NCBI GenBank assembly: GCA_015179025.1
Contig: WHUX01000126.1
Coordinates: forward strand, 94,539-158,538
Source: Terfezia claveryi
Taxonomy: Eukaryota; Ascomycota; Pezizomycetes; Pezizales; Pezizaceae
DNA length: 64,000 bases
Reading direction: 5' to 3'
Each line of letters opens with the position of its first letter. Position 1 is the stretch's first letter. Positions 17,761 to 55,032 of the stretch are shown here, in pieces. The notes beneath the pieces were generated by a model. It did not search any database. It was not told the origin of the DNA and saw nothing but the letters and a program-made list of their open reading frames with translations. Made by a program: the position numbers and the translations under genes.

Positions 17761-18036
17761 TAATTTATAAATGAAGATATAATACCTTTTACTCTCCTAC
17801 TCGTTACCTTTTTCCTGTAGGTTATTTAGGAAGAGGTTTAGTTTTTAATAGCTATAGTATGTATATATAGGTATACTAGTCTTATAGTACCTTATACTAT
17901 AGGAAAAAAGGTATCTTACTAAGAATGATATTATATCTACTACTATAGTTATCTTAGCTACTATTAACACTTGTCTTTTTCTAGGTCAGAAAGACTTGTA
18001 TTCAGCTAAAGATAGCTACCTTACAATTGGGAGTAA

Positions 18037-18631: not shown

Positions 18632-18968
18632 TATAGCCTCCTTATAATATATAGTTTAAGGGAAAGATTAAATATATATATAGAGAAAAAAACATAAAAC
18701 CTTTTAAGTATAGAGTTCTTTACTTCTATATATACTTTATATTATAATACTATATTCTAATTCTTTTAGATTATAAGTTTAGTATTTATTTTACTTGCAC
18801 TTGACTATTTTAGCTTATAATTTTTATTTTTTTTATTTTTTCTTTTTTATCTAAAGATAGTTAAAATAGAAAATAAGGATATAATTATTATAAAACCCAA
18901 CTTTATAAACTATTAAAAATGGAAGATAGATATATATATAATTTTAGTTATAAAGTATCTATAGGTAT
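18632..18968. other. AT-rich spacer between Gypsy-B and Gypsy-A
   Basis: Only TA-rich, low-complexity sequence; no feature. The bases ggtat (18964-18968) adjoin the Gypsy-A LTR and would be one copy of its target duplication. Confidence 0.5.
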
Positions 18969-19591
18969 TGTAATATGGGCTCTAGGGAACAAGACAAAAA
19001 GAGGTATACTGGGGCAAGAGTAGGGCTAGGGCAATATATACGTAGAAATGTTATATATATGACTAAAGGAAGGCTAGGACAGGGAGTAAAAGCAAGAGGC
19101 AAAGGAGGTAGAAGGCAAGGGGTATAAAATATATGGAGGCAGTTGCTATGTATGTCAGAGGAGGGCAGCTGTACTATAGAGTTATTTACAAAACAAGGCA
19201 GGACAAGGGGGTATATAAGGGGGTACACCTTTATGGAGAGAGGCAAAATCTGTATTAGGATATAAGATATTAGATAGGGATCTAACGATAGTATAAGAGA
19301 CAGAGACTATATATACATAATTCCAGGCCAAGGCAATAGAAGGAATAAGCTTTCCAAGATCTCTATCTCAGAAGCTAAGCAAGGTAACAATAACCTATTA
19401 CCTATAATCACAGGTGATGACAAAGGCAATAATGGCAATAACCTATCACTTGTATCACAGGAGATGCCGAGGGCAACAATAAGGATAACCTATTACATGT
19501 AATTGCAGGTGATGACAAAGGCAACAATAGTAATAACCTATTACTTGAGTTACAGGTAATACTGAAAGCAACTGAACATACAGTTATGACA
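18969..19591 (-). repeat. Gypsy-A 3' LTR (RIPped)
   Basis: Aligns by eye to the Gypsy-1/2 LTRs, including the eroded palindromic modules (gtaatagg...cacctgtgat types at 19390-19560). Numerous A/T transitions. Confidence 0.8.
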
Positions 19592-29978: not shown

Positions 29979-30699
29979 TTGAGTAGAACAAGTGTCCTAA
30001 CAAGGTATAACATGCCTCATCTTTATCAACCAGTCTACCACTATTAGAATGGTATTGAATCCTAAGTCTTCTAGCAATCCCATTATGAAATCTATGGTCA
30101 GGTATAGCCACGGCCATTCCAGGATATCCAAAGGCTTCAAGGTACCATATGGGGTATGATGGATGGGCTTAGCACACTTGTAAACATAGTGGTTCTATAT
30201 GTACCATTCTACATCTTTCTGCTGATCTATCTATATATATTTCCTGGCTAGCAATTCCAATGTTTTAGCTACTCTCAGGTAGCCTGCTACTAGGGTATTA
30301 TAGTGTTCCTTGATCAATTGCAGATGCAGATCTCCTTCTAGCATATAGAGCCATTCAAAGTGGTAAAGAAGACCTTTCTAGATAGGTCATTTGGTTAGAG
30401 AGATTTTGAGGTGGTAGCATTAGTCAGAATCTACTGCAATAATGATTTCCTGGGCCAAGGAGTCTTCTTCATAAGCCTGTCTTACCAGTTGTTAGAAGTC
30501 GGCTTCCTTGGTAGCCTTAGCCTTAGCTTCTGTATTAGCCCCAGTATTAGTAAGGACATTGGCTGCTAGATCAAGGTTTTTAGCCTTTAATACTATCTAA
30601 TTTTGGTATTTTAGCCTTTTATTCCCCCCCTTAGAGAGATCTCCTAATCTCCGAGTTAACATATTAGGCTTGCTACTAGCTTTTCCAGGTCCATCAGTA
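29979..30699 (-). mobile_element. Gypsy-A, segment 2 of 4: integrase N-terminal half (RIPped)
   Basis: Minus-strand continuation of segment 1 after removal of Gypsy-1. It carries the eroded integrase zinc domain and the RNaseH-integrase linker; near 30600-30690 it matches the paralogue block encoding [20 protein letters not shown]. It ends where the Plavaka element begins, between the codons for KIKY and RPGK of the paralogues. Confidence 0.85.
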
Positions 30700-32322
30700 A
30701 ACACGAAATCTGCGTCAGGTGCTTCCTGAGCCTATGAAGTGCTTTTGCAAAACCTCAGTATATGTAGCGACGTACTCTATATTCTAGCTTCCTGACGCGC
30801 CTTTCTCTTGCGTCTCTTCGTTAACGCGACGTGTTGAATTCCTTCTTCTTGCAATTAAATTCTTTTCGCTGCATATTTATAGAATACGTTGCATAGTGCT
30901 TTGTATCTACCATGCTTCCGTTTTTTACTCTTCTTTACTCACACCCCTACTTCTAGATCTTCTTTGCCTGTGTTCATCCTGTGTCTCTTTCTCCATTTAA
31001 CTCTCTATCCTACACCTACCTTTACCCGTGCTGCCCATTTACGTGCATCCCTAGTCAAGTTTCCGTGCAATGCTCTGCACCCCCTCATAGAGCATTGCAT
31101 TCCCTCATCCCCCTCATAGTTAACTTCTACGTGCTACCTATTGTCCGACGTTGCTAGTCACCCACGTTACGTATACAGTACTATCTCTGCTCGACTTTCC
31201 ATGAAATGCTTTGTACCCTCTAATCCTTCCCTTAGCTAACCTCTACGAGCTACCTATTGTCTGACGTTGCTAGTCACCCACATTATATATACGGTATTAT
31301 CTCTACTCGACTTTCTATGAAATGCTTTGTACCCTCTAATCCTTCCCTTAGCTAACCTCTACGCGCTACCTATTGTCCGGCATTGCTAGTCCCCCACGTT
31401 ACATATACAGTACTAGCTCTGCTCGACTTTCCATAAAATACTTCGTACCCTCTAATCCTACCCTTAGCTAATCTCTACATGATACCTATCGTCCGACGTT
31501 GCTATTAACCCACGTTATATACAGACGTTGCTATTTACCCACGTTATATACACGGTACTATCTCTACTCAACTTTCTATAAAAAGCTTTATATACTCTAA
31601 TCCGTCCCTTATCTAACCTCTATGTGCTACCTATTCTCTAACATTACGCGTCACTCTTGTTACATGACTGTTTCCATCTCTTGTCAACTTTCTTTGAAAC
31701 ATCTTGTATCCCCTAATCCTCCTATTAGTAAACGTCTCTGTACTACCGATTATCCGACGCTGAGAGTAACCAACGGTACATAACTAGTGCTCTCTCTGGT
31801 CAACTTTCTGTGAAACGTCTTGCATTCCCCAATCTTCCCCTTAGCAAACATCTCTATTGTACTCACTATATGTAGCACTGCATCCTCTAATCTCTTTATC
31901 TAGCAGAATCTGTTCTTCATTTAGCCTGTTCTTCATTTCATTCCTATATACTATGTTGTTTGCTAAGGTATTATTACACGACTTAGGCTCAAAAATTAAT
32001 CTCTATCTAATTCTAACAACCAGCCCATGAAACAATATTCCCAGAAAAAAAGCGATAACCATTACGTCAGAATAATTCTAGAAAAAAAGCGATAATAGGA
32101 AATAAAAGATATCACACAAAATTCATAGCAGGAGATACCGACGACAAAAGGAAACAAGGGAGAGCATGAAAACAGGAGAGTGATAAAACAGCAAGGAAAC
32201 AAGGGAGAGTACGAAAACAGGAGAGCGAGAAAATAGCAAAAACATAAGAGGAGAGAATGCCACGCCTGTAATATATGCAAAACACCTTGCCGAGCGCAAC
32301 TCAATTCCGACCCCCTTAGTCG
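30700..32322. repeat. Left subterminal region of the Plavaka element with about 117-bp tandem repeats
   Basis: About six diverged units between 31065 and 31900 marked by ctacctattgtccgacgttg (at about 31133, 31250, 31366, 31483, 31628, 31742) and cgactttccatgaaatgctt. Outside them no gene is visible; short ORFs (30889-31119, 32062-32304) are unsupported. Such repeats are the usual transposase-binding zones of CACTA-type elements, an inference here. Confidence 0.7.
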
Positions 32323-33758
32323 CTAAAGCTCATCCTCACTTCCAGCGTTCTCCTCAGCTTCGGCATCCTCCTGACCTGCCGCATTCTCCTAATCTTGCGT
32401 CTCCGCCTCTTCTTCACCCAATATGCTATTGTCAATCGCTGGACTCAAAGGATCTGCTAGCTCTACTGAAGAATCTCGCAATAGCCCTCCAACTCTGAGT
32501 CGCTTGTTTTCTGAGACCTCCAATCTCTCGTATGAGTGTTTGAGCTCCTTTCTTAAGTTGACTTCAAAACTCAGCTGGTCTTCTACTTCAGGAGGCTCCC
32601 CTGATTCAAGCTCGACGATCTTTACATTGGCCGCAATCCGGCGTGCTAGATCTGCTTTGATATTCTTAACGAGGAGGTCCTGAATTTCTGGTTTGTTTCC
32701 GTTTCAGGTTAACCACAGCCTGTTGTATGAGACTATTTCTGTTAGCTTTTATCCGACTCCAACAGTTCTTTTGCCCACTCCCACGATATGTGTACACTTA
32801 CGCCAGGTTGTCTCGTACTTGAATTCTAACCCATTGTCTTTATACTCCCCCGTTTTCCACATCTTCAGGCAGTGCCTCATAGCTGTTGACACAAAGCAGA
32901 TAAAAACCCCATTTATCCTCTCCAAAAATTGGGGTCTCGATTCCCCTTCATTTTCTTGGAATAGAAATACTTTTGGAAGATCACTTTCACAATCTCCTCT
33001 GCACGGAAACGATTTTTGAGCTCCTAAGAAGATAGTCAGGTTGTTAGAGTTAGATATTTGACTGCTGGAATCGCATACTTCTCTCGTCGCCTGCCTGCAT
33101 ATGAACCGATCGTTGTCCAATAACTTTTCAACCTCGATCTTTAGGTCATCCTTACAGAGGTGATTAAGGCCATACACCTTAATAATTGTGTGTCGACACT
33201 CGGCAACTAGATGTGCACGAGTTCTCGTATGTATGCTTTTCAGCTGTATACAGTTAATAATCCAATGCTAAGGGGTAGAAGTGGCTAACTTTACATAGGT
33301 ATCAACCGGCTTGATCCGTTCAACATATCGATTCCCTTGTGCTTTATGCCAAGTACTTTGCAACAATAGTAGCGTTTCACCGGGGGTTAGGAATGGCTTC
33401 CGGTACAAAGTATAATTCTCCACCACCGTTCGAGCAATACTAGTCATGTGTTGATAGTGACCTGGAATACTGGAAAAGGCCCTCGTATTTTTCCCAAGGC
33501 CTGGTGCGATTACATAGGTGCTGTCTCCAGTATCAGAGTCTAAATTCGTCTCATCATTATCATCCTTCGTTGTTGGAAGTTAGTAATATCCATTCTTGTA
33601 TAGTATAACACTCTACATACCTCATCCAAGAAGGTTAACTGATTTGACATCAAGGGAGCTTCTCGGGATGCTTGCGTAGCAGGTCGTTTGCAGCTCTCTG
33701 AAGTGGAGGGTTCTTCTTCTATTGCACGATGCTTGCCAGTCGACTTGCGGCCCATCAT
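32323..33758 (-). pseudogene. DUF6532-like protein, cargo of the Plavaka element (stop-interrupted)
   Basis: Exon 1 33758-33621 (46 codons from ATG, basic MMGRKSTGKHR start, Ser/Glu-rich), intron 33620-33565 (56 bp, GTATGT, branch TTACTAAC, ends AAG), exon 2 from 33564 in phase 0. One TAG interrupts exon 2 at 33270-33268 (likely CAG before). Exon 2 shows YTLYRKPFLTPGE, RAHLVAECRHTIIKVYGL, EKLLDNDRFICR and a conserved-looking FICFVSTAMRHCLKMWKTGE. The pattern ..AxRHCLxxWxTG.. near the end resembles DUF6532, a fungal domain of unknown function common in basidiomycetes. After another probable intron (near 32790-32710) the frame continues EIQDLLVKNIKADLARRIA and an acidic tail ending at TAG 32325-32323, with a TGA and a TAG inside. 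All stops fit C-to-T changes. Confidence 0.55.
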
Positions 33759-33774
33759 GACTTTTTGTACAATT

Positions 33775-33965
33775 CTGAGAGGATACAGGGCACCAATTCT
33801 GATAGGATGTAGGATACCAATTCTGATAGAATGCAAGGTACCAATTCTGATAGAATGCAAACGAGATGAATACAGAGGAACGAGATGAATACGGAATGAG
33901 ATGAATGCGGAACGAGATGAATGCGGAACGAGATGAATGCGGAGGAACGAGAGGAACGAGATGAA
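33775..33965. repeat. Short tandem repeats upstream of the DUF6532-like gene
   Basis: Two arrays side by side: about three copies of aggtaccaattctgatagaa (about 28-bp period, 33775-33860) and several copies of gaacgagatgaatgcg (16-bp period, 33900-33950). They lie in the promoter region of the minus-strand gene. Confidence 0.8.
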
Positions 33966-34134
33966 TGATGAATGTGGAGGTTTGGAATCCAACGCGAGGC
34001 GTCAAATGGCTCTTATATACCTGTTAACATTTAATATATTTAGTTTTATTCCTAACTAAATCTACGATTTGCACTACTTCAATGGACCCCCATATCTTTC
34101 TTTCCCCACCCCCCAAATATAACGCTTCTTGTCT

Positions 34135-35394
34135 CTAAGGCCTCTGGCTCCAGGTTGTGGCAGCCGCAGCATGTCCGGCCGCTGTGGCCCTCTGGCGCAC
34201 ACCAGGATTATGCTCCCTCGTTCCGTCCATAACTGCATCATATGCTAGGCTACCTGCCAGCCCAGCAGCACGAGCCTCTATCATCTCGCGTCCATTTGCC
34301 GGTTGTGGGTTGAGAGCTGCTATGTACTCCCACTCGTCATCCTCTGAATCATATATATCTAAATCGGGGAACTTCTCCCGATGTTTGGCCTTTACGGGGT
34401 CCAGGCCCTCGTCCCTGACCTTCCTCAGGCATCGTCTAGCAGCCATTTTCCTGTCCTCAAATGCTTCATCCTTCCTCGGCATTGTTCTCTTAGAGTAGCC
34501 GGCGAGATTCCGACATAAGGTGTCAGAATCCTCCCCTGGGTCATTGTACTGCTCAGCGGCATCCAAAAAGTCCCCCGGGAAATATGCTCCATCATCTGGT
34601 GGGGGAGAATCCGCCTTGGAAGGTACGGCAACAGGATCCCGGAGTAGGACTACCTGTAGTCTTATCGGCTGTGCATTAGTGAGGTCAAAAAATGCCTCTA
34701 CTTCTTCGTCAGATTGCAGGCGCGTTGCATCTGGAATTGTATTAGGTAGTCTGGGATTTTCGAGGGCACCAAATATTGCCCTTACCGTTCGCCCCACCGG
34801 GATTTTGTCTCGCACCTTATCTACTACCTCTAAAAGGGAAGCCACTTGCATGATAGCAACGCAGTAGCTGGGGCAGCCATCCCACTTGTATGCACCTCCA
34901 GGTGTAACCCTGACCTCATCCTCCCGACCAGGGTCAACGAGGAAAATACGCACAGATTTCCGGAAACCCTGGTTTCCGCTTTCATTGTCAGTATTCTGAC
35001 CTGATGTGACGGCGTTGTCATTGGGAGTATACTGAATATCTGGAGTATCGGAGGCAAGGCTTACTACTTGTGATAGAGCGTGGGCGCGTTCTGTATCTCG
35101 TGACTTCTTCAAAGTATCCTGGAGAAGCTTGTCCAGTGCCTTTTCAGCTTCTTTCTTGATTGCTGCTGCACCGTTCTGAAGAAGTCTTTTTCCTGATGCG
35201 GGAAGTCCCGCCTCTGCCAATGCATAGTCTCTAAATATCTTCCATAGGGCAGTTCCAGCCTGCCGCTTGCCAACCACATGATTTGTCCTCGCCCACGCTT
35301 TGATGCCTCCCCTCCACTGAGAATACCTTGAATCATTATCGCCCCAGCCCAAGATGGCTTTAGATCTGCCAACCTCTTCTTTTGCTGATGGCAT
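34135..35394 (-). CDS. Intact 419-aa protein of unknown function (Plavaka cargo)
   Basis: ATG at 35394 opens an uninterrupted 419-codon frame, the longest intact gene in the window outside Gypsy-2 pol. It contrasts with its stop-ridden neighbours. Residues about 1-100 are basic and helical ([38 protein letters not shown]) and could bind nucleic acid. About 145-255 alternates strands and a helix ([52 protein letters not shown]), reminiscent of a ubiquitin-like or PB1-like fold; this is a guess from pattern only. About 300-360 is charged ([20 protein letters not shown]). The C-terminus is Ala-rich. No catalytic motif is seen. Codon use is GC-richer than the surroundings. Transcribed convergently with nothing close; the DUF6532-like gene follows 377 bp downstream in the same direction. 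Confidence 0.75.
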
Positions 35395-36488
35395 ATTGGA
35401 TGCTCTGCGCCGGATGTAAGCTAACGCTAACTGATGATACTGACAAAGTGAATAGTCACTTACCCAATGAAGTAACCTTGAGATATATGAATATTGGTGA
35501 TATACGGTATAGGTTAGCAGACAACCAACGTTGGAATGTTGGTAATATATGGTATAGGTGCGTTGTAACTGTCTTTTGCTCTGATCTGTGAAATACGGAT
35601 CTATGGGGGTATTTATCTAGTTCATGGTTTTAGCCATGACTTCTTGACCAGTACTGGAACATGCGGCCATGATTCCTTGACTATGATTAGGAATTTGTGG
35701 ATGAATCTGGAAATACACTACAGTGGAAATCCGACAACACAGTCAGAATCTGGATCCCACAACATTGTTTCTACTGCACCTAGAATGTTTCTGCAGAACT
35801 AAGCTTGAGTGGAACGTATGTTCATTGGGAACTTTGAGACAAGGCTAGATTGGGTGAGAACAATGTCAGCATTTTCGAGTCGAGGGGAATTTTGAGACAG
35901 GGCTAGATTGGGTGAGAACAACGTTGGCATTTTCGAGACGGATCTTAAAATAGGTGTTCTGACTATGGCAGTCGGAATATCATTTCAGATGTTCTAGAAT
36001 GTTTCGACAGCACAGAGCTAGAGACAGCACAGAGCTAGAGAGTTACCGAGGTTTTACAAACGTAGCTGTGGCCTTAAACAAATGTACCGATGTAGTCAGG
36101 ACTCTGCTCGGCTTTGGATGCTCGAGATGGATAGATAAATTAGGCGCAAGTTCTACTGATACATAGCACTAGCTAATCCGAGCCGTCAATTGCTGTAGAT
36201 GGCAATGAATTTGATACCTCCCCCTGCATAAGAGTCTTGCATTAGCTTTAGTAGTAGTGTTGGTATTGCAACATGCTACCCCTATAACACAACATCCTCT
36301 ATACTATAATATACAACATCCTCTATACTTTAACATCCTCTAATACTGCAATACTGCAATACTGCAATACTGCAATACCTCAATACCTCAATACCTCAAT
36401 ACCTCAATACCGCCTCAATACGCCACACTCAATACACCACACTCAATACGCGACACTCAATACGCGGTACCATACCATACCGTAAAAC
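35395..36488. other. Spacer inside the Plavaka element; short direct repeats, no gene
   Basis: Holds the promoter side of the 419-aa gene. A near-duplicate of about 55 bp (gggaactttgagacaaggct at 35829 and ggggaattttgagacagggc at 35884) and short runs ctgcaatactgcaatac and acctcaatacctcaatac at 36340-36410 are the only structure seen. Confidence 0.5.
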
Positions 36489-37028
36489 ATGTACTTCTAT
36501 ATCATTGCAATTCTTCTTGCCTTATTGACTACTCACGTGGTTAGTACCATCACAACCCGCACCAATCCTACCAATCCCACCACTACCACTACCACCACTA
36601 CCACCACTACCACTACCACCACTACCCCCACTACTACCACTACCCCCACTACCACCACTATCCCTATCCGAGTCGATCTAATACAGAGATTAGTAGATTG
36701 TCAACTGCTGGCAGAACTAGATCATCGATTTCGTTAGGAACAAGTAAATCCAAGTTGTGAAGGTCTGAGGGTGAGGATCAAGGAACGGGTCTCGCAATAT
36801 TGCGATGACCAATTGGTGCATTTTCCAGCCGCAAGGCAAGCACCACAACTGGTCTATCTGAGTCAGCCAATTCAGAAAAAGGTTAGGTGGGTTGATAGTT
36901 GGGTCGACTCTGATTTGGGGTCTATGGACCACTTTGATTTGTCTGATGTAGAGCTTTCCACAATACCTGATTCGGAACCTGATTCGGAGTACCAGTGTTC
37001 GTGGGAGGAGTTTAATTTGCAGTGGTAG
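36489..37028 (+). pseudogene. Small secreted-looking Thr-rich protein, one in-frame stop
   Basis: ATG at 36489, then a hydrophobic stretch MYFYIIAILLALLTTHVVST fitting a signal peptide, a run of about 35 Thr/Pro codons (ACT/ACC), and a charged unique part (IPIRVDLIQRLVDCQLLAEL, then VRIKERVSQYCDDQLVHFPA, and an Asp/Glu-rich end). The frame has one TAG at 36735-36737 and ends at TAG 37026-37028 (180 codons including stops). If the internal TAG was CAG it would be a 178-aa protein or longer. No family recognised. The unique part alone might be an older gene to which the Thr-run frame was added. Confidence 0.4.
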
Positions 37029-38095
37029 AGTATAATGGGAGGCAACCAGACTAAATGGGAGGGTCCTCAAGAGCACTGGCGGGAGAGCTAGTAGAAGAGC
37101 TGGTAGAAGAGCTGGCGGTGGAAGAGCTGCAGGAGGGGAGGGGGGGGGTGTTTTCTTTTGTATTTTTTTCAGAGCGGAAGAGCTGGCAGAGCGGAGCAGG
37201 GGGAGGGCTAGTGGGGGTGGACTTGTTGTATGAGGGCTGGTGGGAGAGCTGGTGGGAGAGCTGGTGGGAGAGCTGGTAGGAGAGCTGGTAGGAGAGCTGG
37301 TGGGAGAGCTGGCGCTGGTGAGAGAGCTGGCGCTGGTGGGAGAGCTGGCGCTGGTGGGAGAGCTGGTGCTGGTGGAGAGCTGGCGCTGGTTGGAGAGTTG
37401 GCGGGAGAGCTGGTGGGGAGGGCTAGTGGGTGGGGAGGGCTAGTGGGTAGTGGAAGAGCTGGCAGAGCGGAAGAGCTGGCAGGGCTAGTGGGGGTGGACT
37501 TGTTGTATGAGGGCTGGTGGGAGAGCTGGTGGGAGAGCTGGTGGGAGAGCTAGTGGGAGAGCTGGCACTGGTGGGAGAGCTAGCGCTGGTGGGAGAGCTG
37601 GTAGGAGAGCTGGTAGGAGAGCTGGAGAGTTGGCGGGAGAGCTGGTGGGCTGGTGGGGAGGGCTAGTGGGGGTGGACTGGTTGTATGAGGGCTGGTAGGG
37701 TGGGGGGCTAGCAGTGGTGGGGGGGAAGGGGGGGAAGGGGGGGAAGGGGAGGAGGGTTGTTGGAAGGAGGGGAAGGGGGGGAAGGGGAGGAGGGTTGTTT
37801 TCTTTTGTATGTATTTTCTTTTGTATGAGGGCGGCTGGCAGGGAGGGCTGCTGGCAGGGAGGGCTGGCAGGGAGGGCTGCTGGCAGGGAGGGCTGGCAGG
37901 GAGGGCTGCTAGTAGGGAGGGCTGCTGGCAGGGAGGGCTGCTGGCAGGGCGGGGAGGGCGGGGTTTTGTATGTGTTTTCTTTTGTATGAGTTTTCTTTTG
38001 TATGAGGGCTGCTGGCGGGGAGGGCTGGCTGGGAGAGCTGGCTGGGAGGGCTGGCTATAAAAGTAAGTACCTCACTCCCTCATTCCTTAGTTACT
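37029..38095. repeat. G-rich minisatellite block inside the Plavaka element
   Basis: Three array types: gctggtgggaga (12 bp) from about 37225 to 37660, gggggaaggggaggagggtt around 37715-37800, and gctggcagggaggg (14-bp type) from about 37833 to 37960. A longer unit that includes ggtggacttgttgtatgagg recurs at 37208, 37493 and 37671, and ttttcttttgtatgag at 37148, 37800, 37978 and 37990, so blocks were duplicated. The plus strand is strongly G-over-C skewed with many GGG runs. ORFs across it are Gly/Arg or Glu/Leu repeats without function. Confidence 0.9.
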
Positions 38096-38417
38096 ATAGA
38101 TGCTAACCAACCTACATACCATATAGGCAGCGGCAGCAGCAAACTTTAGCCTAAGATATTTGTTAGTTATATCTATTATCTATATAAATATAATTAATGA
38201 TAAGGAATTTAATACTTAGTATACCAACCTTCTGCCTTAATAACAGCTGCTACAATGAGGAGACTTCCTGGCATATTAATCAAATCCCTTCCTGGCATAT
38301 TAATTAAATCCGGATATTTAATCAAATCTGGATATCTGGATACTGGTGAAGTTGGTCCCGGTGAAGTTGGTCGACTCATTTCATTTCCTCGAGTACCCTT
38401 TCCGTAACATACAAAAG
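38096..38417. other. AT-rich spacer downstream of the oxygenase gene
   Basis: No gene. Small direct repeats ccttcctggcatattaatca (38265-38310) and ggtgaagttggtcccggtga (38345-38375). Confidence 0.5.
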
Positions 38418-39648
38418 CTATGCAATATCATCCTCTGGCTCAAAGTTCCCCATTACATTATGTTGACTAAAAAAGATAACAGTACTTCGTTTGCCAATGA
38501 AAGGCATGACATAATGTTCTAACAAACATGAATGGAAAATAATAACATCTTCAGGTTGAAATTCAAACCTTTGTTGAAGAGCAGGAATAACAAGCTCACC
38601 TCCGGTAAACTTTCCCCAACAACACATAACCACCCATCCATCCTTATAATCAGACTTATCTTTATGAGGCTCTGCTGCAAGGTTCCTAATCAAAACAATA
38701 CCTTGAAAGCATGCTCTGCGTGAGGTCGACATGCCGCTCTGCTCTATATAATTAGTTTCAAACTATTCACGAAGAAGATCCCAACAAACGTACCTATATT
38801 ATTGCAAGTAATGTAAATGCATTACTGGATCAACAGCTTGAAATAATAAAGAAACAGACTGTATCAATGGTGCAATCTTTCTATAAAACATGTAGGCACC
38901 ATTATGATGTGCTCCACTTGATATTAAATCTCGAAGAGAGAACAGGATCTTTGACCCCTCTTTGCCCAATAGCCACCCATCTGGCAAAATGATAGACACC
39001 ACAATTGCCTGAACCATACTTCTCTAAAGCTTCTTCAAAATGTTGGTGACAGACATCCGAAACTTTAGGCCTTGGTGGTGGAAACACGATAGCCAAATCC
39101 GCAATTGCTTCCTCTACTGCCGTTCTCATCTGTTCAGCCTGTATTTTTCCAAATGGAATCTCCAATGCTTTCCGCCAATATACCATAATCATCTTATCAT
39201 CAACTGAAATCTTCTTGCTATCAACAACCAAAGGGTAATTTTGTGCAATAGAAGTAGCAGTCGAGACAGAAGTCAACGGAGTATTAAGCTTAATAAAGGA
39301 AGGGACGCCAGGAGAAGGGACGCCAGGAGAAGGGACGCCAGGAGAAGGGACGCCAGGAGAAGGGACGCCAGGAGAAGGGACGCCAGGAGAAGGGACGCCG
39401 TCGGAAGGGACACCGTCGGAAGGGACACCAGGGACGCCGTCGGAAGGGACGCCAGGGACGCCGGGGACGACGTCGGAAGGGACGCCAGAAGGGCCAGGTG
39501 AGGTAGAAGTATGTAAGGTAGAAGTAGTATAAGTTTCCAATTTGAGATTTTTATGGAATGCTCGAGTAACTTTGGCATCCAAACGGTCTGATTCCTTATA
39601 CTCCAAAGGGGTAGACTTAAGCTGTTGAACCAAGCGAACACTATTCAT
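38418..39648 (-). pseudogene. TET/JBP-like 2-oxoglutarate dioxygenase (Plavaka cargo), disrupted
   Basis: Belongs to the fungal TET/JBP oxygenases, Fe(II)/2-oxoglutarate enzymes that oxidise methyl groups of bases in DNA. From ATG 39648: N-terminal part, a Gly-Val-Pro-Ser repeat (15-bp minisatellite), a linker, then VYHFARWVAIGQRG, KDPVLSS, and after a one-step frameshift (near 38930) GAYMFYRKIAPLIQSVSLLF, a TAA (38801-38799), VCWDLLRE, a TAG (38765-38763), MSTSRRACFQGIVLIRNL, then the catalytic core: PHKDKSD (HxD metal ligands), GWVVMCCWGKFTGGELVIP, PEDVIIFHSCLLEHYV (distal His) and GKRSTVIFF (Arg for 2-oxoglutarate). All catalytic residues are kept. The two stops fit CAA/CAG to TAA/TAG. It might be expressed only in other copies of the element. 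Confidence 0.75.
39298..39490. repeat. 15-bp minisatellite inside the oxygenase gene
   Basis: Unit gaagggacgccagga, about six perfect copies, then variants with gccgtcg. A period divisible by three keeps the GVPSP/GVPSD reading frame open on the minus strand. Confidence 0.9.
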
Positions 39649-41259
39649 TTTGATTTAAATACACGTGCCAGCAGTAATTGCAATAGCTCCCGTTGGCAGT
39701 AATTGCGACGTAGGATTGTGAAATTTAATAAATGTATAGCTTCTACCAGTTTGTTCAGCCTTGGTCTTAGTCCTTAATAGGAGGTTGGTTGAATTTCAGG
39801 GGTAGAGGCAGGTCGTAGAGGCGCAGGTCGTAGAGGCGCAGGTCGTAGAGGCAGGTAGGCGTTGGAGGCAGGTCGGGGGTAGAGGCAGGTGGGGGTAGAG
39901 GCAGGTCGGGGGTAGAGGCAGGTCGTGGTTGGAGGTAGGCTGGCTGGTGGTGGTGGTTGGAGGTAGGCTGGCTGGCGTTGGAGGTAGGCTGGCTGGCGTT
40001 GGAGGTAGGCTGGCTGGCGTTAGAGGTAGGCTGGCTGGCGTTGGAGGTAGTGTGGGGCGGTGGGGTGTGGGGCGGTGGGGCGTGGGGTGGTGGGGCGGTG
40101 GGGCAGTGGGGCGGTGGGGTGGTGGGGTGAAGGTAGACGGGTGAAGGTAGACGGGTGAAGGTAGACGGGTGAAGGCGGGTGAAGGCGGGTGAAGGCGGGT
40201 GAAGCTGCGAAGGAAAATGAATATGTAGCCTTAAGTTGATGACTCAACTAGGGCGCTAGCCTACGTTCGGCTGCCCCTAAGGTTTTACGCGAGACGCCCC
40301 AAAGTCGCCTCGGTTCAACCAAGTATTGATAATAGAGGGTAAAATGGGAACCTATAGAAGTTCAACTAAGTGTTGTTAATTGTAGTAAAGCCATTGTAGA
40401 AGCGTTCAGTAATGGTGGTTGAGGTAGAGCAGACCGGGCTCATAACCTGTTGAGATACAGGTATATGAGATATACACTATATCCAACAGGCAGCGGTAAT
40501 TCAACCAAGTATCCAATAAAGGAGAAACTTAGGAACGGATCTAATAGGCTGGTAGCGGACGTTCTGGTGAATGTAGAGGACGTAGTGGATCCTGAAGAGA
40601 ATGCTGTAGAGCGTGCACTAGAAATGTAGAATGTATAGGAGAATATATAGTGGAATGTATGAGTGAATGAGATTGATGTGAACTGATATGAACTGATGTG
40701 AACTGATGTGAACTGATGTGAACTGATGTGAACTGATGTGAACTGATGTGAACTGATGTGAACTGATAATCTCTGAAGGAAGGGAATTCCCCTCCTATAT
40801 ATACACGATTCCAGCAAGCTATAGCATAAGCCAGAGCGTGCTAAATGCGTTCAACATGATTACAACATACTCAACATATTTGAGTTTATAACAATAAAGT
40901 TTAACAGAAGTATAACTCAGAATATGGTTTAACATGTGTTGTAAGCATGTGAATAGAGCTAAAACAGAGTTATTAGAGCGTGAATAACATAACTAATAAT
41001 AGAGGTATGCATGTGAAAAGCATATGGAAATACTTAATCTATGTAAGTATGAAGCACATGATTTGACATGTGGTGGAATGTAATTAGGAATGAATAATGC
41101 ATGTGTATGTGATTTGTGGTGTAAGAGAGAGCGTTTGAACGCGTTTTTTAATATCTCCAACGCTCAAAGTCACCTCTCCAATGCTCCAAATCGCACTCCA
41201 ACGTCGCCTCCTAACGTCGCCGCTCCAACGTCTCGTAACATATACGAAGCAAAACAACG
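39649..41259. repeat. Spacer with several minisatellites, 5' of the transposase
   Basis: gtagaggcaggtcg types (39800-39930), ggaggtaggctggctggcgt (20 bp, five copies, 39958-40050), ggggcggtggggtgtggggc (40060-40125), gaaggtagacgggt (40130-40200) and gtgaactgat (10 bp, about nine copies, 40677-40765). No gene is visible; the ORFs 40020-40247 and 40440-40817 on the minus strand run through repeats. The stretch between the oxygenase and the transposase genes, which point away from each other, probably holds both promoters. Confidence 0.7.
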
Positions 41260-44242
41260 ATGAACTGGCATAAAACACGGTGCCACTGGTGCCCACAACT
41301 CTATGCTTCACCAGGAGCATATGCGAATCATCTGGCGAAGATTCATCCGGAGGAAAAGTTGTTCAAGTCTCGAAAGCATCGGTTGTCTGACATTAGCCAC
41401 ACAAGTTCCTCTTCTGCCGAACTTGAGATCGCCAACATCGGGGAGATCTTTTTAACAAGCAATGATTGCTCTGACCGAGAGGGAGAGAGTGAAGGCTCTG
41501 ACGAAGAAGTTAGGAACTATTGCAGTGATGCAGAATCCGCAGAATCCGACGGAGAAAGCCAGCAATCAGAAGCACTGAATACAATCACTCAGCCAGTAGC
41601 CGGTACTCCAATACGAGAACACTTTTTTCCCGAGCAAGATCTAGAATTCAATTTATATTCTCCATTCCGCCATCCAGTTGACTATCGACTTGCCCGCTTT
41701 TTTAATGCTATACATGCATCGGAGAAAAAAATTGACCAGTTCTTCAAGAATGGAATCTTGCAAGCCCTCAATCCAACTCACCGGGTCCAATTCCAGTCAG
41801 CTCACACAATGTACAACCTTGTCGATAAGGCAGCAGATGAACCTTGTTGGTATTCAGGGAAAGTAGACTATCCCTTGCTCAAAGGAGTGCAGTTTCGTTA
41901 TCGCAATATTATCTCCGCAGTAAAGTACCTTCTAAGGCAGAAGGTATATGCAGCGAATATGGTATGGGGACCACGGCGAGAATATGACAAGCAAGGAAAC
42001 CGCATATATAGTGAGATGAATACAGGGACATGGTGGGAGGATGCATAGGTATGTAATTTCTATGTGACACGTTGGATTTGGGACTAAAAAATAAAAACAG
42101 CTTTCGCTACCGGAAAGAGGGACACTGGTTCCCATCCTGCTTGCATCAGATCAAACTCACCTTACAAATTTCTCCGGAGACAAAAAACTATGGCCTGTTT
42201 ACATGAGTATCGGGAATATTCGAAGCTCCATACGAAATACTCCTACAATGCATTCTTGGATACTAATTGTATTCTTACCCATTGGCTCCAAACGAGTTAA
42301 GAAGATTCCTGGGTATTCTCCTGATATGCAGGAAATTCAGGCCTTGCAGACTACACATGATGTTTTAACACAGTTGCTCAAGCCACTAGCCGATACAGCA
42401 TGCTAGAAAGGCTACGAAATGATTTGTGCTGATGACAATATTCGGTTATGCTTCCCCAAGCTGTTTTGTTGGCTTGCTAACCATATGGAAAATGCTACTC
42501 TCCATGGAATTACTAGCAACCACTGTCCCACTTGCATAATACCGACAGAGAAGCTCGGTGAATATTCAGAGACCAGTTATCTGACACGCTCACATCAGGA
42601 TTATATTCTAGCCTACAACAAATCCGACATGGAGAGTTTGAATGCTAATGGTGTGAAAAACATCAAAAACGCTTTGTGGTCAATCCCTAACCTGAACCCA
42701 CCAGACCTAGTTCGAGCGGATATTTTGCACAATGTCCTCCTTGGAGTATTTGAGCATCTGATGAGGTGGATTCAAGGTTTTCTGGAACACCATAACCGAA
42801 TTATTGCATTTGACTATGTCTGGCATCGGTTACCCCCCTATTCTGGCTTTTCTATTCCTTCGAAGGCATATCGTGTAATTTCGTAGTGGTCGGGAAAAGA
42901 GATGCGGAACTTCAGCAAAGTCATCCTGGGAACATTCGTTGCTGCATTACGTCGCAATACGGACCAGGCACGTCCAACTGGAGCTCAAATACAGGAGTTT
43001 AATAGAGCAATTCACTGTGTGCGTAGCATTACTGACTTCTACCTTATGACTCAGTATGACAGCCACACGGATGAGACGATTTCATATTTAGAGAAATATC
43101 TGTGTATCTTCTATGAAACCAAGGATGTATTCTTACGCTTCCGTGCAGGCAAGGTAGCAAAGCAGGCAGCTGCAGAAGCGCATAAAGATTTGTTGCAAGA
43201 ACAAAAGCAAGCAGAAGCTTCAGTTAAACACCTCACTGTGTTAGAGAAGGTTAAATTGCGGCAGGGAAATACGTTTGAACATCGGGAGCTGGTGGATGAG
43301 ATCTTAAAGGAAGGATCTCATTATAATTTCCCCAAGATTCACCTGATCTCACATTATGCAGAACAGATACCAAAATTTGGTACACTTGGTCAATATTCTA
43401 CCGAGATTAGTGAAACTATGCATAAAGCATTTAAGGATGCTTACCGTCGGAGCAATAGGGTCGATGCATTATCACAAATTGTCACTACATACACGAGGGA
43501 TCATACATTCACTATGAAGGACTTGGCAATTGGGACGTGGACCCGAATAAGGCAAGGTGGTGAACGCGGTGAACCAACTGGTGGTGGTGGTGTCGGAAAA
43601 CCACCGACAACGAGAGGGCAGGTGTATTTAAAATTACGAGGGAAAATTGAGTTTGGAAGAGTGGGAAATATTGCAGAACTAGAGCATGCAACGGCAGTGG
43701 GTGATCTGACGCTAGCTACGCAGATCTTTTTGACTCGAGATGTTAAGTGTACTGATTCAGACATACAGCGACTATTAGAGGGGAATATCAGGGCTTATAA
43801 AATGCTGGATATCCCTGTACCGAAGTTGAGTGGGAATGGGTTTGTTGTTCACCATGCGAGATGCACCGGATTAGATATGTTTAGAAAACAACAGAGATCT
43901 GATTGGGTTTGGGTTAGAAGACATAGGGCATCAGATGTAGCATGGCCAGGGACGTTAAATGGGCGTATACCTGGGAGATTGAATGCATTGTTTAAGTTAA
44001 AGAGCAAGGAAGGAATTGTGTACCGAGTGGCAAATGTTAGTCTTCTTCAGTGCATAGGCGGGAGTTCTGTACAGGGTACAGAAGGGATGCTGCGTGTTGG
44101 ATGGGGTGGAAGGGAAGAGAGTATGGTAGTTCAGATAGCAAAAGTTGAGGGTATGGCACACCTGATACCATTAGAACCCGGGGAAAGCTGGTTGGTGAAC
44201 AATAGAATAGATCTTGAGACATGGGACGCATTGTATGATTAG
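41260..44242 (+). pseudogene. Plavaka transposase, two exons, three in-frame TAG
   Basis: Exon 1 41260-42048, intron 42049-42100 (52 bp, GTATGT...GACTAA...CAG), exon 2 42101-44242; 976 codons in one frame. N-terminal C2H2 zinc finger CHWCPQLYASPGAYANHLAK; an acidic Ser-rich linker; the Plavaka core with LASDQTHLTNFSGDK and WPVYMSIGNI (first Asp), ADILHNVLLGVFEHLMRW (second Asp), and FPKIHLISHYAEQIPKFG plus STEISETMHKAF (Glu). These fit the DDE transposase of Plavaka elements (CACTA superfamily). TAG codons at 42046-42048, 42404-42406 and 42884-42886 replace residues where Gln is expected at least twice (WWEDAQ, QWSGKEM); the first follows gca, i.e. CpA to TpA. Otherwise no frameshift, so inactivation is recent. 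Confidence 0.9.
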
Positions 44243-44787
44243 CAAGGAGATGGATAATGATTCCGAGACCCGATGCATAGTGTATATAGTAAATATATAG
44301 TATTAAGTATTACGTATGCAGGAAACAATGGTAGCGTGCAGGAAACAATGGTAGCGTGCAGGAAACAATGGTAGCGTGCAGGAAACAATGGTAGCGTGCA
44401 GGAAACAATAGTAGCGTGCAGGAAACAATAGTAGCGTAGTAGCGTGCAGAGACTGCAACTAAATAGCGCGTGGAAGTTAGGTTGGGGATGCAGGTGATAT
44501 AACAAAATGGACGTTAAGCACATAGGGCAGAAAGGTACTCTAGAGGTCAGTCTGGAGACGCTGAAGATAAAACAAAATAGACGTTAAGGACACAAGGCAA
44601 GAAGCAACACAGAGCAGTGCGTGCGCGAAATAACAACAATATCATTGTGCACATAATAAAGGAAGCGACGCGAAAGTCAGGCTGAGGACGCAGGTGATGT
44701 AACAAAATGGATGTTAAGCACATAGGGCAGAAAGGTGCTCTAGAAGTCAGTCTGGGGACGCTGGAGATAAAACAAAATTGACGTTAA
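44243..44787. repeat. Right subterminal repeats of the Plavaka element (part 1)
   Basis: Six 20-bp units (gcaggaaacaatggtagcgt, 44318-44437), then diverged longer repeats marked by aacaaaatggacgttaagca and acatagggcagaaaggt at about 44500, 44570 and 44700. They continue beyond the solo LTR to about 45740. Confidence 0.75.
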
Positions 44788-45470
44788 TGTAATGAATGGT
44801 ACTAGACAGTATTCATTCGGTACCGTTTATACAATCTATATCCGTAGGCACGGACGTTTGTGTATTTCGGTTCTGCTGAGGTAAGACCTCAGAAGGGTAG
44901 GGAGATTACTATGTGGGACGTTCCCGGAGGGAACAGTAATTAACTGGTGTAATCTATCTTATATGATTTGTGCTATCTAAGCTATATGATCTTGATCTGA
45001 TCGGAATATAGGCTTGCTTGCTCTGAAGGCTTGCTTGGTTGCTTCTTGCTTTCTTTCTGTGGATTCCAGAGGGAATCCAGCGGCCTATTTATACTCCTCT
45101 GAGATCTGATGACTAAGGAAATAAATACAATAAAGGGTGGCACACCAGAAGGTGGTGCGCTGTACAAAAGGGGTCATGTGGCCATAGTAATGAGTCACAC
45201 GCCTTAGACAATGGTCATGTGACCATAGTAATGAGTCACACGCCTTAAACAGAGGTCACGCGGCCATAATGAGGGTGTCCTCGTATGGCAAGTGCCATGG
45301 AACTTCCCATGGCAGATTCCGCGTGCTATGGACGCTTATAAAGCAATAGGAGGTGGTAGGAGGCTAGTCCTTCAACCGAGAGGCTTAGTTACATAAACAT
45401 AGTAGTAATATAGGAAATACAAAAGTATATAATCAATTATATAAGCAATGAGATAACGTTCTCCATTACA
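44788..45470. mobile_element. Solo LTR of the Gypsy-5 family
   Basis: 683 bp with perfect 7-bp terminal inverted repeats TGTAATG...CATTACA and a 5-bp target duplication GTTAA (44783-44787, 45471-45475). Matches the RIPped LTR at 56187-56837 along its length but is much less mutated. Orientation relative to the coding strand of the family is inverted on the plus strand. Internal repeats ggtcatgtggccatagtaat occur three times at 45170-45270. Arose by LTR-LTR recombination. Confidence 0.95.
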
Positions 45471-45820
45471 GTTAAGGACACAAGGCAGGATGTAATATAG
45501 AGCAGCGCGTGGGGATGGCAGCTGAAATGACAGCAATATTATTATGTACATAATGAAGGAAGCGACGCGAAAGTCGGGCTGAGGACGCAGGTGATATAAC
45601 AAAATGGACGTTAAGTACATAAGGAAAGAAGGAACGTGAGGCACGCACAGGGAGGGGAGGCGGTATGATAAAATTAACGTTATGCACACAACGAAGGAAG
45701 TGACGCAATGTGTTACTATGAGGATGGATGTAAAATAATATAAGTCATATTAAGCTCAGAAAGAGCCTGACGTACATGCAGTTGCTTATGCGTCAGGACG
45801 CAGAATTTTTTTTCCTGATG
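45471..45820. repeat. Right subterminal repeats and right end of the Plavaka element
   Basis: Continuation of the repeats seen before the solo LTR (gttaaggacacaaggcagga, aacaaaatggacgttaagta, aaaattaacgttatgcacac). The end zone has gcgtcaggacgcagaattt, containing the small palindrome gcgtc-ag-gacgc. Confidence 0.75.
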
Positions 45821-45826
45821 TCAGTA

Positions 45827-49994: not shown

Positions 49995-51230
49995 ATGGCT
50001 ACCCAAGACTCTACTCTCACTGCCAGGTTTCGAGCCTGGCAAGCCCTGCCTATTCCTATGAACCAGGTCGACTTCGGCAGTTATCGCCAGACCATTATCG
50101 ACATATACCTTGCCGCAGATGCCTTGGGCCAACGACTGGAATCAGCCATACATGAAGGCCAACAAAAACAGACCAGGACCAATGATGAGGTCACGATACT
50201 CACCGAAGACCTCCTCTCATGCCAGGCCGACCTCGCCTCCTGCTAAAGCAACCTCGTGACTGCCCAGAACGACTTAATCAACGAAAGAAGAACCATTCAG
50301 ACTCTGAATAGGGCCCTGGACACGATTGGAAGCCAAGCAGCTCCAGCACCCCAAGCATCCCAGGCACCCAAAACCCAAGATCTCCCCACCCCACCAAAGT
50401 TTAATGGCGAAAGGACACGCCTGAAAGCCTGGAAAAATTCCATCAAGATTAAACTGAATGGGGATGCTGCAAAGTTCCCTACCGTTCAGCACCAATTAGC
50501 CTATGTATATGGCCTACTGGAGGGCATAGCTTTAGACCAGGTTCAACCCTATGTGCTCGATGACCACTTCAACCTCCCTGACATTGCTGCTTTATTCACA
50601 ATCCTCGACCGCGCTTTTGGAGACCCGGATCCCGTAGGTACAGCCACTCGTGCTCTTCGAGAATTAAAACAGAAAGGTCATAACCTCTCAGCGTATGTGG
50701 CCGAATTCTCAAGGTTGGCAGCAGAGGTGGAATGGAACGATCGGGTAAAGCGGGAACAATTCGAGGAGGGCCTCAACATTGAGCTCAAAAGGGCCCTCCT
50801 GCAAGCTCCAGATGTCAAAACTCTCGACGAATACATTGATCAGGTGTCGAAGATGGAGCAAAAATTGGCTAGGTTAAGAGCCCAGACCAGCGCCTCCAGT
50901 ACCTATCGGCCTGCGAGAGTACAGCACCCCCAGAGCCAAATGCAGCAACTGCGACCCCAGAACCCGAGCCCTCAGATCCAAGCTACGGCCAATAAGCCAG
51001 CCCACCTGTCCCTTGTGGCTGGCGGCACCACCCCCATGGATTTATCATCAGGAAGGCCCCGCCTGACACAAGAAGAAAGGGAACGTCGCCGCAACAATGG
51101 GTTGTGCATTGCCTGTGGAAAAGGGGATCACTTCATTGCAGCCTGTCCTTTGAGAAAGAATCGCTCCCTGGCCGTACATGCGGTGTCCGAAACCCCAGAG
51201 GAGTTGGGAAAAGTGGAGTCCCTTGCCTAG
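49995..51230 (+). pseudogene. Gypsy-2 gag (one in-frame TAA)
   Basis: Structural polyprotein that forms the virus-like particle and binds the RNA. ATG 49995 (MATQDSTLTARFRAWQALP), a coiled-coil-like stretch, TAA at 50244-50246 (probable CAA), then an open frame to TAG 51228-51230: LPTPPKFNGERTRLKAWKN and FGDPDPVGTATRALRELKQK of the retrotransposon gag domain, a Gln/Pro linker, and zinc knuckle CIACGKGDHFIAAC (C-x2-C-x4-H-x4-C) near 51107-51148. About 411 codons. The heptamer GGGAAAA (51206-51212) is placed in register (G GGA AAA) 16 nt before the stop and would shift ribosomes by minus one into pol. Confidence 0.9.
51206..51212 (+). promoter_or_regulatory. Minus-one programmed frameshift site (gag-pol)
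   Basis: G GGA AAA in the gag frame, canonical X XXY YYZ form. After slipping, translation continues SGVPCLVADTSKGPI in the pol frame. The same word in the same register is present in Gypsy-1 (25331-25337) and even in RIPped Gypsy-A (48009-48003, minus). Confidence 0.7.
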
Positions 51231-54200
51231 TTGCTGACACTAGCAAGGGACCTATTTTGGGTCATTTATCTTTATCTGCGTTTTCTTTGTCTACATCTAT
51301 GTCTGTTGATGAGTCTCGCCTGTTTGGCGAGCACTTCGTTGTACCTATAACTGTCAAGTTCAATGATAAAACAGTGGTTATATCAGCTCTCATAGATTGT
51401 GGGGCTTCAGGAATAGCATTCATTGACCAGACCTTCGTCAGTAGAAACTCTATACCAACCTCCAAGCTAAAAACCCCCCGCCTTCTTAATGTTATTGACG
51501 GCCGCCCTATCTCTTCTGGGGCGATTACCGACCTCGCATGCCTGCCCAGCACCATGGGTGATCACTCGGAAGATCTCCCAATGTTCGTAACCAAGCTAAA
51601 GTATCCAATTGTCCTTGGGATCCCCTAGCTCAGGATGCACGATGTATCAGTCAGTTTCGGCTCTTACACCCTGCGATTCAACAGCCCTTATTGCAAAAAA
51701 CACTGTGGAGATCCAAAAACCACTATCACTGGGCTGTGCGCATTGCCACCCCCAATAATCCACCCGACTCAGGTGGTACTCCCGCCTGCATACATCAATG
51801 CCACCATTCCCCCAGTTTCCCCGGTTACCTCTGTTCCCCCAGTTTCCCTGATATCCCCCACCCCCGCAAAACCCCTGAATATTAACTTTATTGGAGCAGG
51901 GGCCTTCGCTCATCTCACCAGGAGGCATAAGCTCAAGGCGCATACCCTCTCAATTTATGAGATCAATCTGGAAATTAACAAGACCAGGTCCAAGGAGGAG
52001 TGGAAATCCTTGGTTCCGAATGAGTACCATGAGTTTATTGATTTGTTCTCAGAGAAGGCCGCGGAAAAGCTTGCCCCCCATCGACCATACGACCACACAA
52101 TCCCGCTGATTGAAGGAAAAACTCCCCCTTATGACCCCTCTATGGAATGTCCCGAGTGGAATTGGAGGCCCTGAAGAAGTACCTGGAGGAGAACTTGAAT
52201 AAGAGCTTCATTCGGCACAGCTCTTCCCCGGCGGGTGCTTCTGTACTGTTCGTGAAGAAATCAGACGGCTCTCTTCGGTTGTGTGTTGATTATCGTGGCC
52301 TGAACGAGATAACGGTTAAAATCAGGTACCCCCTACCTCTAATCCAGGAGACATTAGCCAGGCTTTCCAAGGCAAAATGGTTTACCAAATTGGACTTGAG
52401 AGGGGTGTACAACCTGGTACGGATCACTGAGGGAGAGGAGTGGAAAACTGCCTTCAAGACATGTTACGGCCACTTCGAGTACAACATCATACCCTTCGGC
52501 TTAACCAATGCCCCAGCCTCTTTCCAACACTTTATTAACGACACTCTGCGAGACTTCCTGGACATGTTCTGCACGGCTTACCTCGACGATATCTTGATCT
52601 ATTCAGATACTCTGGCAGAGCACAAAATCCATGTCAGGCAAGTCTTAGAGAAGCTGAAGCAGGCTGGGCTGTACCTTAAGCCTGAAAAATGCGAATTCCA
52701 CGTCCAAGAAGTGAAGTACCTGAGCTTGATCATAACCATGAAAGGTATTAGGATGGACCCCGACAAAGTTGCTGCAATCCAAGAGTGGGAAACCCCAGCC
52801 AATTTGAAGGATGTGCAAGCCTTCCTAGGATTTGCTAACTTCTACTGCCAATTTATCCTAGGATACTCAAGGATCGCGGCACCCCTGACGGCCCTGACGA
52901 AGACGAAGGTAGAAGCTGGCTCACACCTAACGAAAAGGGCCTTCCACTGGAATCCAGAAGCCCAATCCGCCTTTCAGAACCTCAAGGAAGCTTTCTGCTT
53001 AGCACCGATCCTGGCTAATTTCAACCCCGAACAGGAGTGTGTCGTCGAAACTGATGCCTCCGACTATGTCTCCGCAGGAATTCTGTCCCAGAACGACGAT
53101 AATGGCATCCTCCACCCAGTGGCATACTTCTCAAAAAAGCACTCTCCGGCGGAGTGTAATTATGAAATCTATGACAAGGAGTTAATGGCCATTGTGCGAG
53201 CATTCGAGGAGTGGAGGCCACACCTGGAGTCAGCCAAGGGGATCATCGAGGTACTATCTGATCATAAGAATCTTGAGTACTTCACCACCACTAAGCTGCT
53301 GAACCGACGGCAGGCTAGGTGGTCGGAGTTCTTATCTCGATTCAACTTCAAGATCAAGTATCGGCCTGGAAAGGCTAGTGGGAAACCAGACGCACTGACC
53401 AGGAGATCAGGAGATCTCCCTAAGGGGGGGGATGAAAGGCTAAAATACCAGAACCAGGTGGTACTGAAGCCGGAAAATCTTGACCTGGCCGCCAACGTTC
53501 TGGCTGAGGCTAAGGCTGAGGCTGAAGCTGAGATCGTGGATGTCGAGGCTGATGCAGATGCTGGAAGTGATCTCCGACAACAGGTAAAAAGGGCATACGC
53601 AGAGGACCCACTGGCCAAAGACATTATCGCCGCAGTGGATTCTGGCCAGCGCCGCCACACCAAGATTTCCCTGGCCGAGTGTACAACTCAGGACGGCCTC
53701 CTCTACCACTTGGACCGCCTCTACGTGCCTGCAGACGATAAGCTACGCCTGCGATTGATCAAGGAACACCACGACACACTGGCAGCGGGTCACCCTGGAG
53801 TGGCTAAGACGTTAGAGTTGCTGTCTAGGCAATATACGTGGATTGACCAACGGAAGGAAGTGGAGCGGTACATACGGAATTGCTATGTCTGCAAGCGTGC
53901 CAAACCCACCCGCCATGCTCCTTATGGTACCCTGAAGCCCCTGGAAGTCCCAGAACAACCCTGGCAACACCTCACTATGGACTTCGTCACCGGATTGCCG
54001 GAAGACTCGGAATTCAACGCCATCTTGATGGTAGTAGATCGGTTAACGAAAATGAGGCATGTGATACCCTATCGAGATACCTGCTCGGCCCCCGAATTGG
54101 CATCCCTCTATCTGGATAATGTCTTCCGTTACCATGACCTCCTAGCATTGATTGTCTCAGACCGTGGCCCTCAGTTCATCGCCGACTTCTGGAAAACATT

Positions 54201-55032
54201 CTGTGAGCTGTTGGGTATCGAAGTACACCTGTCTACGGCATACCACCCTCAGACTGATGGCCAGTCAGAACGTATGAACGCCATCATGTAGTAATATCTG
54301 AGGGCGTACATCAATTACCAGCAGAATAACTAGGTTTCATTGCTGGCCACCTGCGAATTCTCCGCCAACAACCACTTCTCGGAGACCCTGAAGACCTCCC
54401 CATTCCTGGCCAATTATGGCTGGCACCCTCGGTTCGTAGACTCCCTGGCACCTCTGCGCAAGGCCAGGGAGAATGCCCAGCTAAGGAGTTTGCCACGCAG
54501 ATTTCTGAACTTCACTCTACCCTAAAAGCTGAGCTGGGATATGCGCAAGCCAGGCAAGCCGAATATGCCAATGGATCACGGTTGCCAGCCCCAAGTATCA
54601 GCCAGGAGATAAGGTGTGGCTCTCCAGCAGGCACTTCCGGACGGAATGGCCATCTCGCAAGCTCGACCATAAGTTCCTGGGTCCATTCGAGGTGGTGGCC
54701 GCTGTGGGGCCTCATGCCTATCGACTGAGGTTCCCCAAGGACATCAAATGCCACCCGGTTGTACACATATCGGAAATTGAGCCAGGGGCTGACGATCCCC
54801 TCCCAGGGCAGAAACACCCCCACCCCCTCCAGTAGTTATCGAAGGTGAAGAGGAATGGGAGGTGGTGGAAGTGCTGGACTCGTGAAAGAGGTATGGGCAA
54901 CTGCAGTACAAGGTTAAATAGGTAGGGGACGAGGAGGCTACCTGGCAACCCGCTAAGGACCTGGAAAATGCACAGGATCTGGTCTCCCTGTTCCATCAGC
55001 GATACCCGAGGAAGCCCCGTCCGGTTGAGTGA
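51213..55032 (+). pseudogene. Gypsy-2 pol: PR-RT-RNaseH-IN-chromodomain, lightly damaged
   Basis: Replication polyprotein. Protease about 51310-51630 (ALIDCGASGIAFID, catalytic Asp); TAG 51626-51628 at an expected Trp (GIP-W-LRMHDV); one base lost in a C-run at about 52133-52137; then a 714-codon frame 52147-54291: RT with [15 protein letters not shown] and YLDD (52579-52590), RNase H ([15 protein letters not shown]), integrase H-H-C-C zinc domain (53765-53900, NCYVCKRAK), core [32 protein letters not shown] at 54289-54294, TAG 54331, single-base losses near 54478, 54592 and 54810, and TGA/TAG in the chromodomain (EEEWEVVEVLDS, 54850-54990). Ends TGA 55030-55032. The chromodomain would direct integration to methylated heterochromatin. 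Confidence 0.92.

Follow-up and report, generated by a model that had tools for sequence, protein, structure and literature searches.

A decayed PlavakaB-type transposon with an HxD-type TET/JBP dioxygenase gene in the truffle Terfezia claveryi

A block of about 15 kb that interrupts a Gypsy element in the desert truffle Terfezia claveryi contains a Plavaka transposase together with a gene for a TET/JBP-like dioxygenase, and raises the question of whether the block is one mobile unit and what a putative DNA-base oxidase would have done for it. The block lies in a window of 64,000 nucleotides (assembly GCA_015179025.1, contig WHUX01000126.1, positions 94,539 to 158,538; C31:94539-158538 in our handles, the window copy being C31), which a sequence-only reading had described as a Plavaka element with a captured TET gene, intact in its catalytic residues, and other cargo. 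We compared it with the rest of the genome (72.56 Mb, 794 contigs), for which all match counts given here (transposase, 419-amino-acid gene, DUF6532, Plavaka, Gypsy and dispersed repeat) are lower bounds. What we observed directly are its termini with their 2-bp duplications, the empty site, the gene families and copies that are co-linear with it. As a whole, we consider it probable that the block is a decayed PlavakaB copy, that TET was gained by one subfamily, and that past oxidation of 5-methylcytosine (5mC) weakened silencing.

The element occupies positions 30692-45820 (+, the transposase orientation) and is 15.1 kb long. Its termini, CATCAG..CTGATG, are the same in C31 and in the complete copies C774 and C319, and belong to an imperfect terminal inverted repeat (left, 30692-30716, +, starting CATCAG; right, 45797-45820, -, finishing CTGATG). 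TC target-site duplications flank it at 30690-30691 and 45821-45822, and the duplications are also 2 bp long at C774 (TA), at C319 (TG) and at two insertions without TET, C268 and C19 (both TA). The left-end pattern, allowing up to three mismatches, was found at 16 genome sites and the reversed control pattern at none. When the window flanks were joined with a single TC, the product matched Gypsy copies across the junction at 40 of 40 scored places (drawn from 266 candidates, 82-88% identity), and the Gypsy junction was ungapped in all six empty sites inspected. The exact empty site, the TC duplication and the shared ends bear out the claim that a 15-kb Plavaka block interrupts Gypsy once; of its proposed borders, 30700-45820, the end was exact but the true start lies 8 bases earlier. 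The PF18759 transposase domain, the CATCA..TGATG termini and a 2-bp duplication, within the 2- or 3-bp rule, agree with PlavakaB, and a chance run of neighbouring genes was ruled out by the co-linear copies, the duplications and the empty site.

Copies C774 (+) and C319 (-) match the window element end to end, the aligned columns being 97.3% (C774) and 98.3% (C319) identical, and a fourth TET-bearing copy, C481, runs into a contig end. All three have the gene order of the window element, so that Plavaka copies with TET do exist beyond the window, two complete and one cut by its contig, with conserved ends and order as the sequence-only reading had anticipated. A further close transposase copy, C757 (97%), lacks the upstream half of the element, and no TET was seen there on its 11-kb contig.

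The Plavaka transposase gene (41260-44242, +; delimited with PF18759 and by comparison with C319) matched PF18759 in two pieces, both over the cut-off (9.7e-20 and 1.2e-12), with a frame change or intron near 42046-42095 and nonsense codons at 42404-42406 and 42884-42886, both of which are Q in C319. The DUF6532 gene (32392-33579, -) is in pieces and interrupted, with a PF20149 match of 4.6e-12 at 32752-33267 (-) and a stop where the C774 frame continues; it is also found in the TET-less sister copies described below. Together with the Tet_JBP match given below, these results confirm that the Plavaka, DUF6532 and Tet_JBP profiles each find their gene in the element. The 419-amino-acid gene (34135-35394, -) has an open frame in the window, as had been noted, and its protein has 35 relatives in a protein search and at least 107 matches in the genome; searches for a name gave Tri-helical at 0.0038 in Pfam, below the cut-off, and nothing in NCBIfam at E up to 0.1, and its predicted model had a predicted template modelling score (pTM) of 0.32.

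The description of the DUF6532 and 419-amino-acid genes as cargo was not upheld, since both recur next to Plavaka transposases in this genome. The 419-amino-acid gene lies within 15 kb of 25 of 40 transposase copies, against a random expectation of about 1.7, and DUF6532 within 10 kb of 60 of 123 Plavaka places, against about 4.8, although both expectations take transposons as unclustered. All 107 listed matches of the 419-amino-acid gene entered the first count (a subset of 57 gave the same result), and the second took 123 of 127 Plavaka and 143 of 149 DUF6532 entries, leaving out second pieces of one gene. The pairing is also oriented: in each of the 25 pairs the 419-amino-acid gene lies upstream of the transposase and reads from the other strand, and DUF6532 is on the opposite strand in 57 and upstream in 56 of its 60. 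For at least 4 of the 15 transposases without the 419-amino-acid gene, no more than 3.1 kb of contig precedes the start of the transposase. In addition, C19 is a complete TET-less element of about 9.9 kb with the same order, similar over the DUF6532 region, the 419-amino-acid gene and the transposase. Because the two genes recur beside Plavaka transposases and keep their order in C19, we regard them as partners of the transposase, and their oriented pairing rules out captured cargo.

The TET/JBP dioxygenase gene (38418-39648, -) is of HxD type and broken, as judged by frame comparison among copies. Its Tet_JBP (PF12851) match at 38421-38762 (-) reached 2.9e-9 and 36.8 bits, against a cut-off of 34.9, and a relative of environmental origin with an unbroken frame, P0004, scored 42.7 bits. 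The HxD and the downstream H and R of the iron- and 2-oxoglutarate-binding site stand out in a profile aligned to CcTet and are present in the window exon, and the motif reads HKD in the window exon, P0004, P0008 and the copy at C490. The HxD...H...R residues of the earlier claim are indeed there, but the gene itself is not intact: compared with other copies it shows a nonsense codon as well as a frame change.

The TET gene belongs to a module (36009-41246) that is an optional part of the element. In a sister subfamily (C268/C647 and C27) that has the DUF6532 region, the 419-amino-acid gene and the transposase in common with the window element, about 0.24 kb of unrelated sequence replaces these 5.2 kb. 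In C268 and C647 the reading covered the two ends as well as the DUF6532 region; the C27 alignment took in the junction, the 419-amino-acid gene and a portion of the transposase, and a search placed DUF6532 and left-end matches nearby. C268 and C647 count as one insertion because their flanks are identical; they also have the same extra 3-kb piece within the DUF6532 gene and look like a single insertion present twice, through duplication or as alleles. Since both the sister and a more distant subfamily are without TET at this position, the most economical reading is that one lineage acquired it. Nested in the module is a high-copy dispersed repeat (36196-38260), which has matches at dozens of other loci as well as inside all four TET-bearing elements, and which is overlapped by low-complexity long open reading frames at 36.7-38.1 kb.

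Protein relatives of the TET numbered 12 in a single-sequence search and 13 in a profile search, with named sources solely in Terfezia and Tirmania. Within the T. claveryi genome, TET genes at C490, C645 and C260 show 74-76% DNA identity and are each convergent with a helicase; the C490 helicase matched PIF1 (5.3e-17), with a Helitron N-terminal domain match below the cut-off, and those at C645 and C260 showed 57-60% protein identity over the best stretch. Between Plavaka and Helitron copies, the ratio of nonsynonymous to synonymous rates (dN/dS) was 0.05-0.09 over 233-252 codons at a dS of 1.4-2.1, near saturation. The TET protein is conserved between the two kinds of carrier, which suggests strong past constraint. 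In a tree of the N-terminal part (11 rows), the window copy pairs with Tirmania P0002 at a support of 90/97; the Helitron copies join a T. boudieri protein (81/98), and the deeper forks are weakly supported. Elsewhere in the genome, a more distant TET at C701 (L062) lies beside Helitron_like_N (PF14214, 6.6e-48) and PIF1 (PF05970, 1.5e-51), and together with L033 it makes up another TET/JBP clade, further removed and with the motif HQD; at C245 a TET and a Plavaka share a strand and are 11 kb apart; and TET remnants 86-91% identical as an inverted pair at C205:11120-12434 are perhaps a rearranged dead copy.

On the reading that we prefer, the transposase would excise the element and paste it elsewhere, with the DUF6532 and 419-amino-acid proteins as likely accessory factors of the same transposition system, as their families suggest. 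The TET module would have entered one subfamily between the 419-amino-acid gene and the transposase, related TETs being found beside Helitron helicases, and the intact enzyme may then, with less certainty, have oxidised 5mC in the DNA of transposon copies, thereby weakening their silencing or the mutation that is linked to methylation. DNA methyltransferase domains were found at three host loci. That the TET would have protected its own copies from silencing is plausible, although the indirect signs are mixed.

Several observations weigh against this reading, in addition to the assumption of unclustered transposons noted above. The choice of gain over loss of TET follows from parsimony only. 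All four TET copies (C31, C774, C319 and C481) have a frame change or stop, dN/dS among the TET-bearing Plavaka copies was 0.34-1.07, and the transposase is interrupted in each of the three TET-bearing copies in which its full length is present. The TET-bearing copies also carry a mutation pattern like that of repeat-induced point mutation (RIP): in a three-copy comparison, 104 of 114 window-specific changes were C-to-T or G-to-A (69 at CpA, 26 at CpG). The same classes account for 162 of the 228 changes in C774, and for 66 of the 107 in C319. Among 12 TET-less copies, 128 of 154 singletons were of this kind (50 at CpA, 56 at CpG). The indices of the element were 0.94 for TpA/ApT and 1.21 for (CpA+TpG)/(ApC+GpT). 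Furthermore, the TET-less subfamily is more numerous, providing 32 of the 40 scored transposase matches, and the 12 best-scoring of these 32 are less diverged (98.4-99.9% identical), 7 of the 12 keeping the 698-amino-acid transposase frame. Given this RIP-like decay and the numerous, less diverged TET-less copies, TET was neither a full protection nor needed for success here.

These figures lend some credit to a rival explanation, to which we give a lesser though real chance: that the TET is a passenger, which arrived by chance in one Plavaka lineage, perhaps through a nested Helitron or other insertion, and was copied along without ever helping. Besides the abundance and lower divergence of the best-scoring TET-less copies, the module position is filled in just 4 of 123 scored Plavaka places (C31, C774, C319 and C481; the fifth place with a TET within 10 kb is another Plavaka, which lies 9.3 kb away from the TET of C319, and TET places in this neighbour count numbered 19, C260 included). 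A high-copy dispersed repeat likewise sits inside the module, and the closest TET relatives adjoin Helitron helicases. Set against a passenger is the strong constraint that the TET protein shows when Plavaka and Helitron lineages are compared, though this was perhaps exerted in Helitrons; moreover, similarity between the Helitron region examined at C490 and the element was found only over the TET and about 110 bp upstream.

A second rival accepts an enzyme that acts on DNA but mainly not on 5mC, either on another base such as N6-methyladenine (6mA) or to another 5mC product, and we hold it to be unlikely, less so than the remaining one. The predicted model of P0004 has the TET-like double-stranded beta-helix fold and is nearest to CcTet, which, according to the text of Kojima 2025 (PMC12730594), also acts on 6mA and has an Asp337 reported essential for 5mC. 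When the profiles are aligned without gaps, at low identity, Asp337 of CcTet corresponds to Val here and Gly331 to Asp, and the Val makes the substrate uncertain, a further point against the preferred reading. CMD1, which makes another product, is a match too, and other activities of transposon TETs are left possible in the text of Kojima. However, 5mC oxidases have the same fold and the same facial triad, and the residue alignment beyond the core is uncertain, identity being 16%. That the protein belongs to some other 2-oxoglutarate oxygenase family is most improbable, for although its best match to a solved TET (CcTet, 6e-6 over 84 residues) is weak and limited to the core, that match and the model comparison speak against another family and, with PF12851 over its cut-off and CcTet as nearest structure, affirm the TET/JBP assignment of the sequence-only reading.

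Of the PU, AG and PE types of Kojima 2025, the TET matches neither PE nor AG. The PE-type hallmark HxE is replaced by HKD, and in the low-identity alignment the residues of the AG type at CcTet Gly331 (G or S) and Asp337 have no counterpart. As described in the text of Kojima 2025 (PMC12730594), TET-bearing Plavaka with CATCA..TGATG ends occur in Agaricus bisporus and Gymnopus confluens, and Plavaka TETs are assigned to the PE type. These PlavakaB elements resemble ours in transposase, termini, 2- or 3-bp duplications and an internal TET/JBP; they differ in coming from Agaricales and in having PE-type HxE, whereas the T. claveryi element is from Pezizaceae and has HxD. The same text reports Helitron and IS3EU carriers of TET in Pezizomycetes. 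The Pezizales TET Helitrons share Pezizomycete hosts and transposon TETs with our case, in which the TET relatives adjoin a Helitron-type helicase, but they are rolling-circle elements with published TETs of PE type, while the T. claveryi element is of the cut-and-paste kind and the TETs read from this genome and its relatives are HxD. KDZ elements with AG-type TET (CcTet, the closest solved structure) likewise combine an HxD TET/JBP with a DNA transposon but differ in the family of their transposase and, according to Kojima, in having duplications of 7 or 8 bp, and the CcTet Gly331 and Asp337 positions are not conserved here; no KDZ transposase domain was found at E up to 1 in the nine pieces scanned with Pfam, and the duplications are 2 bp, not 7-8.

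The idea of a Plavaka capturing TET was therefore right as to a mobile unit with TET but had already been published, and because Kojima 2025 describes TET-bearing Plavaka, the element is a fresh version and not the first. What is new is a TET-bearing Plavaka in an ascomycete truffle (Pezizaceae) with an HxD enzyme, which extends the range of such elements from mushrooms. Terfezia, Tirmania and Pezizaceae are absent from the main text of Kojima 2025, and among the open-access papers searched that study alone treats Plavaka with Pezizomycetes, or TET with Helitron and truffle, together. Since elements that agree in their ends and partner genes but differ in having a TET occur in one genome, they offer a natural comparison for the silencing idea.

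More tentatively, a separate Pezizaceae lineage of HxD TET/JBP may have moved between Helitrons and Plavaka as an anti-silencing module against RIP, with the subfamilies with and without TET recording the contest; we regard this wider account as possible but doubtful. If it is true, the lineage, its carriers and the paired subfamilies would be new. The counter-hypermutation idea is already Kojima's, whose text proposes that TETs let transposons escape silencing and, in Puccinia, counter hypermutation.

Other features of the window lie outside the element. An AT-rich stretch at 11500-19000 (G+C content 25%) has a RIP-like signature far stronger than that of the element (TpA/ApT 1.40, (CpA+TpG)/(ApC+GpT) 0.59). 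A piece of a TauD-family dioxygenase gene at the window edge (3-545; PF02668, 4.5e-14) is perhaps a host gene, and a second Gypsy-like element at 50247-54288 contains a pol frame that is open over 718 amino acids and matches RVT_1 (1.1e-36), as well as a match to gag (8.7e-6).

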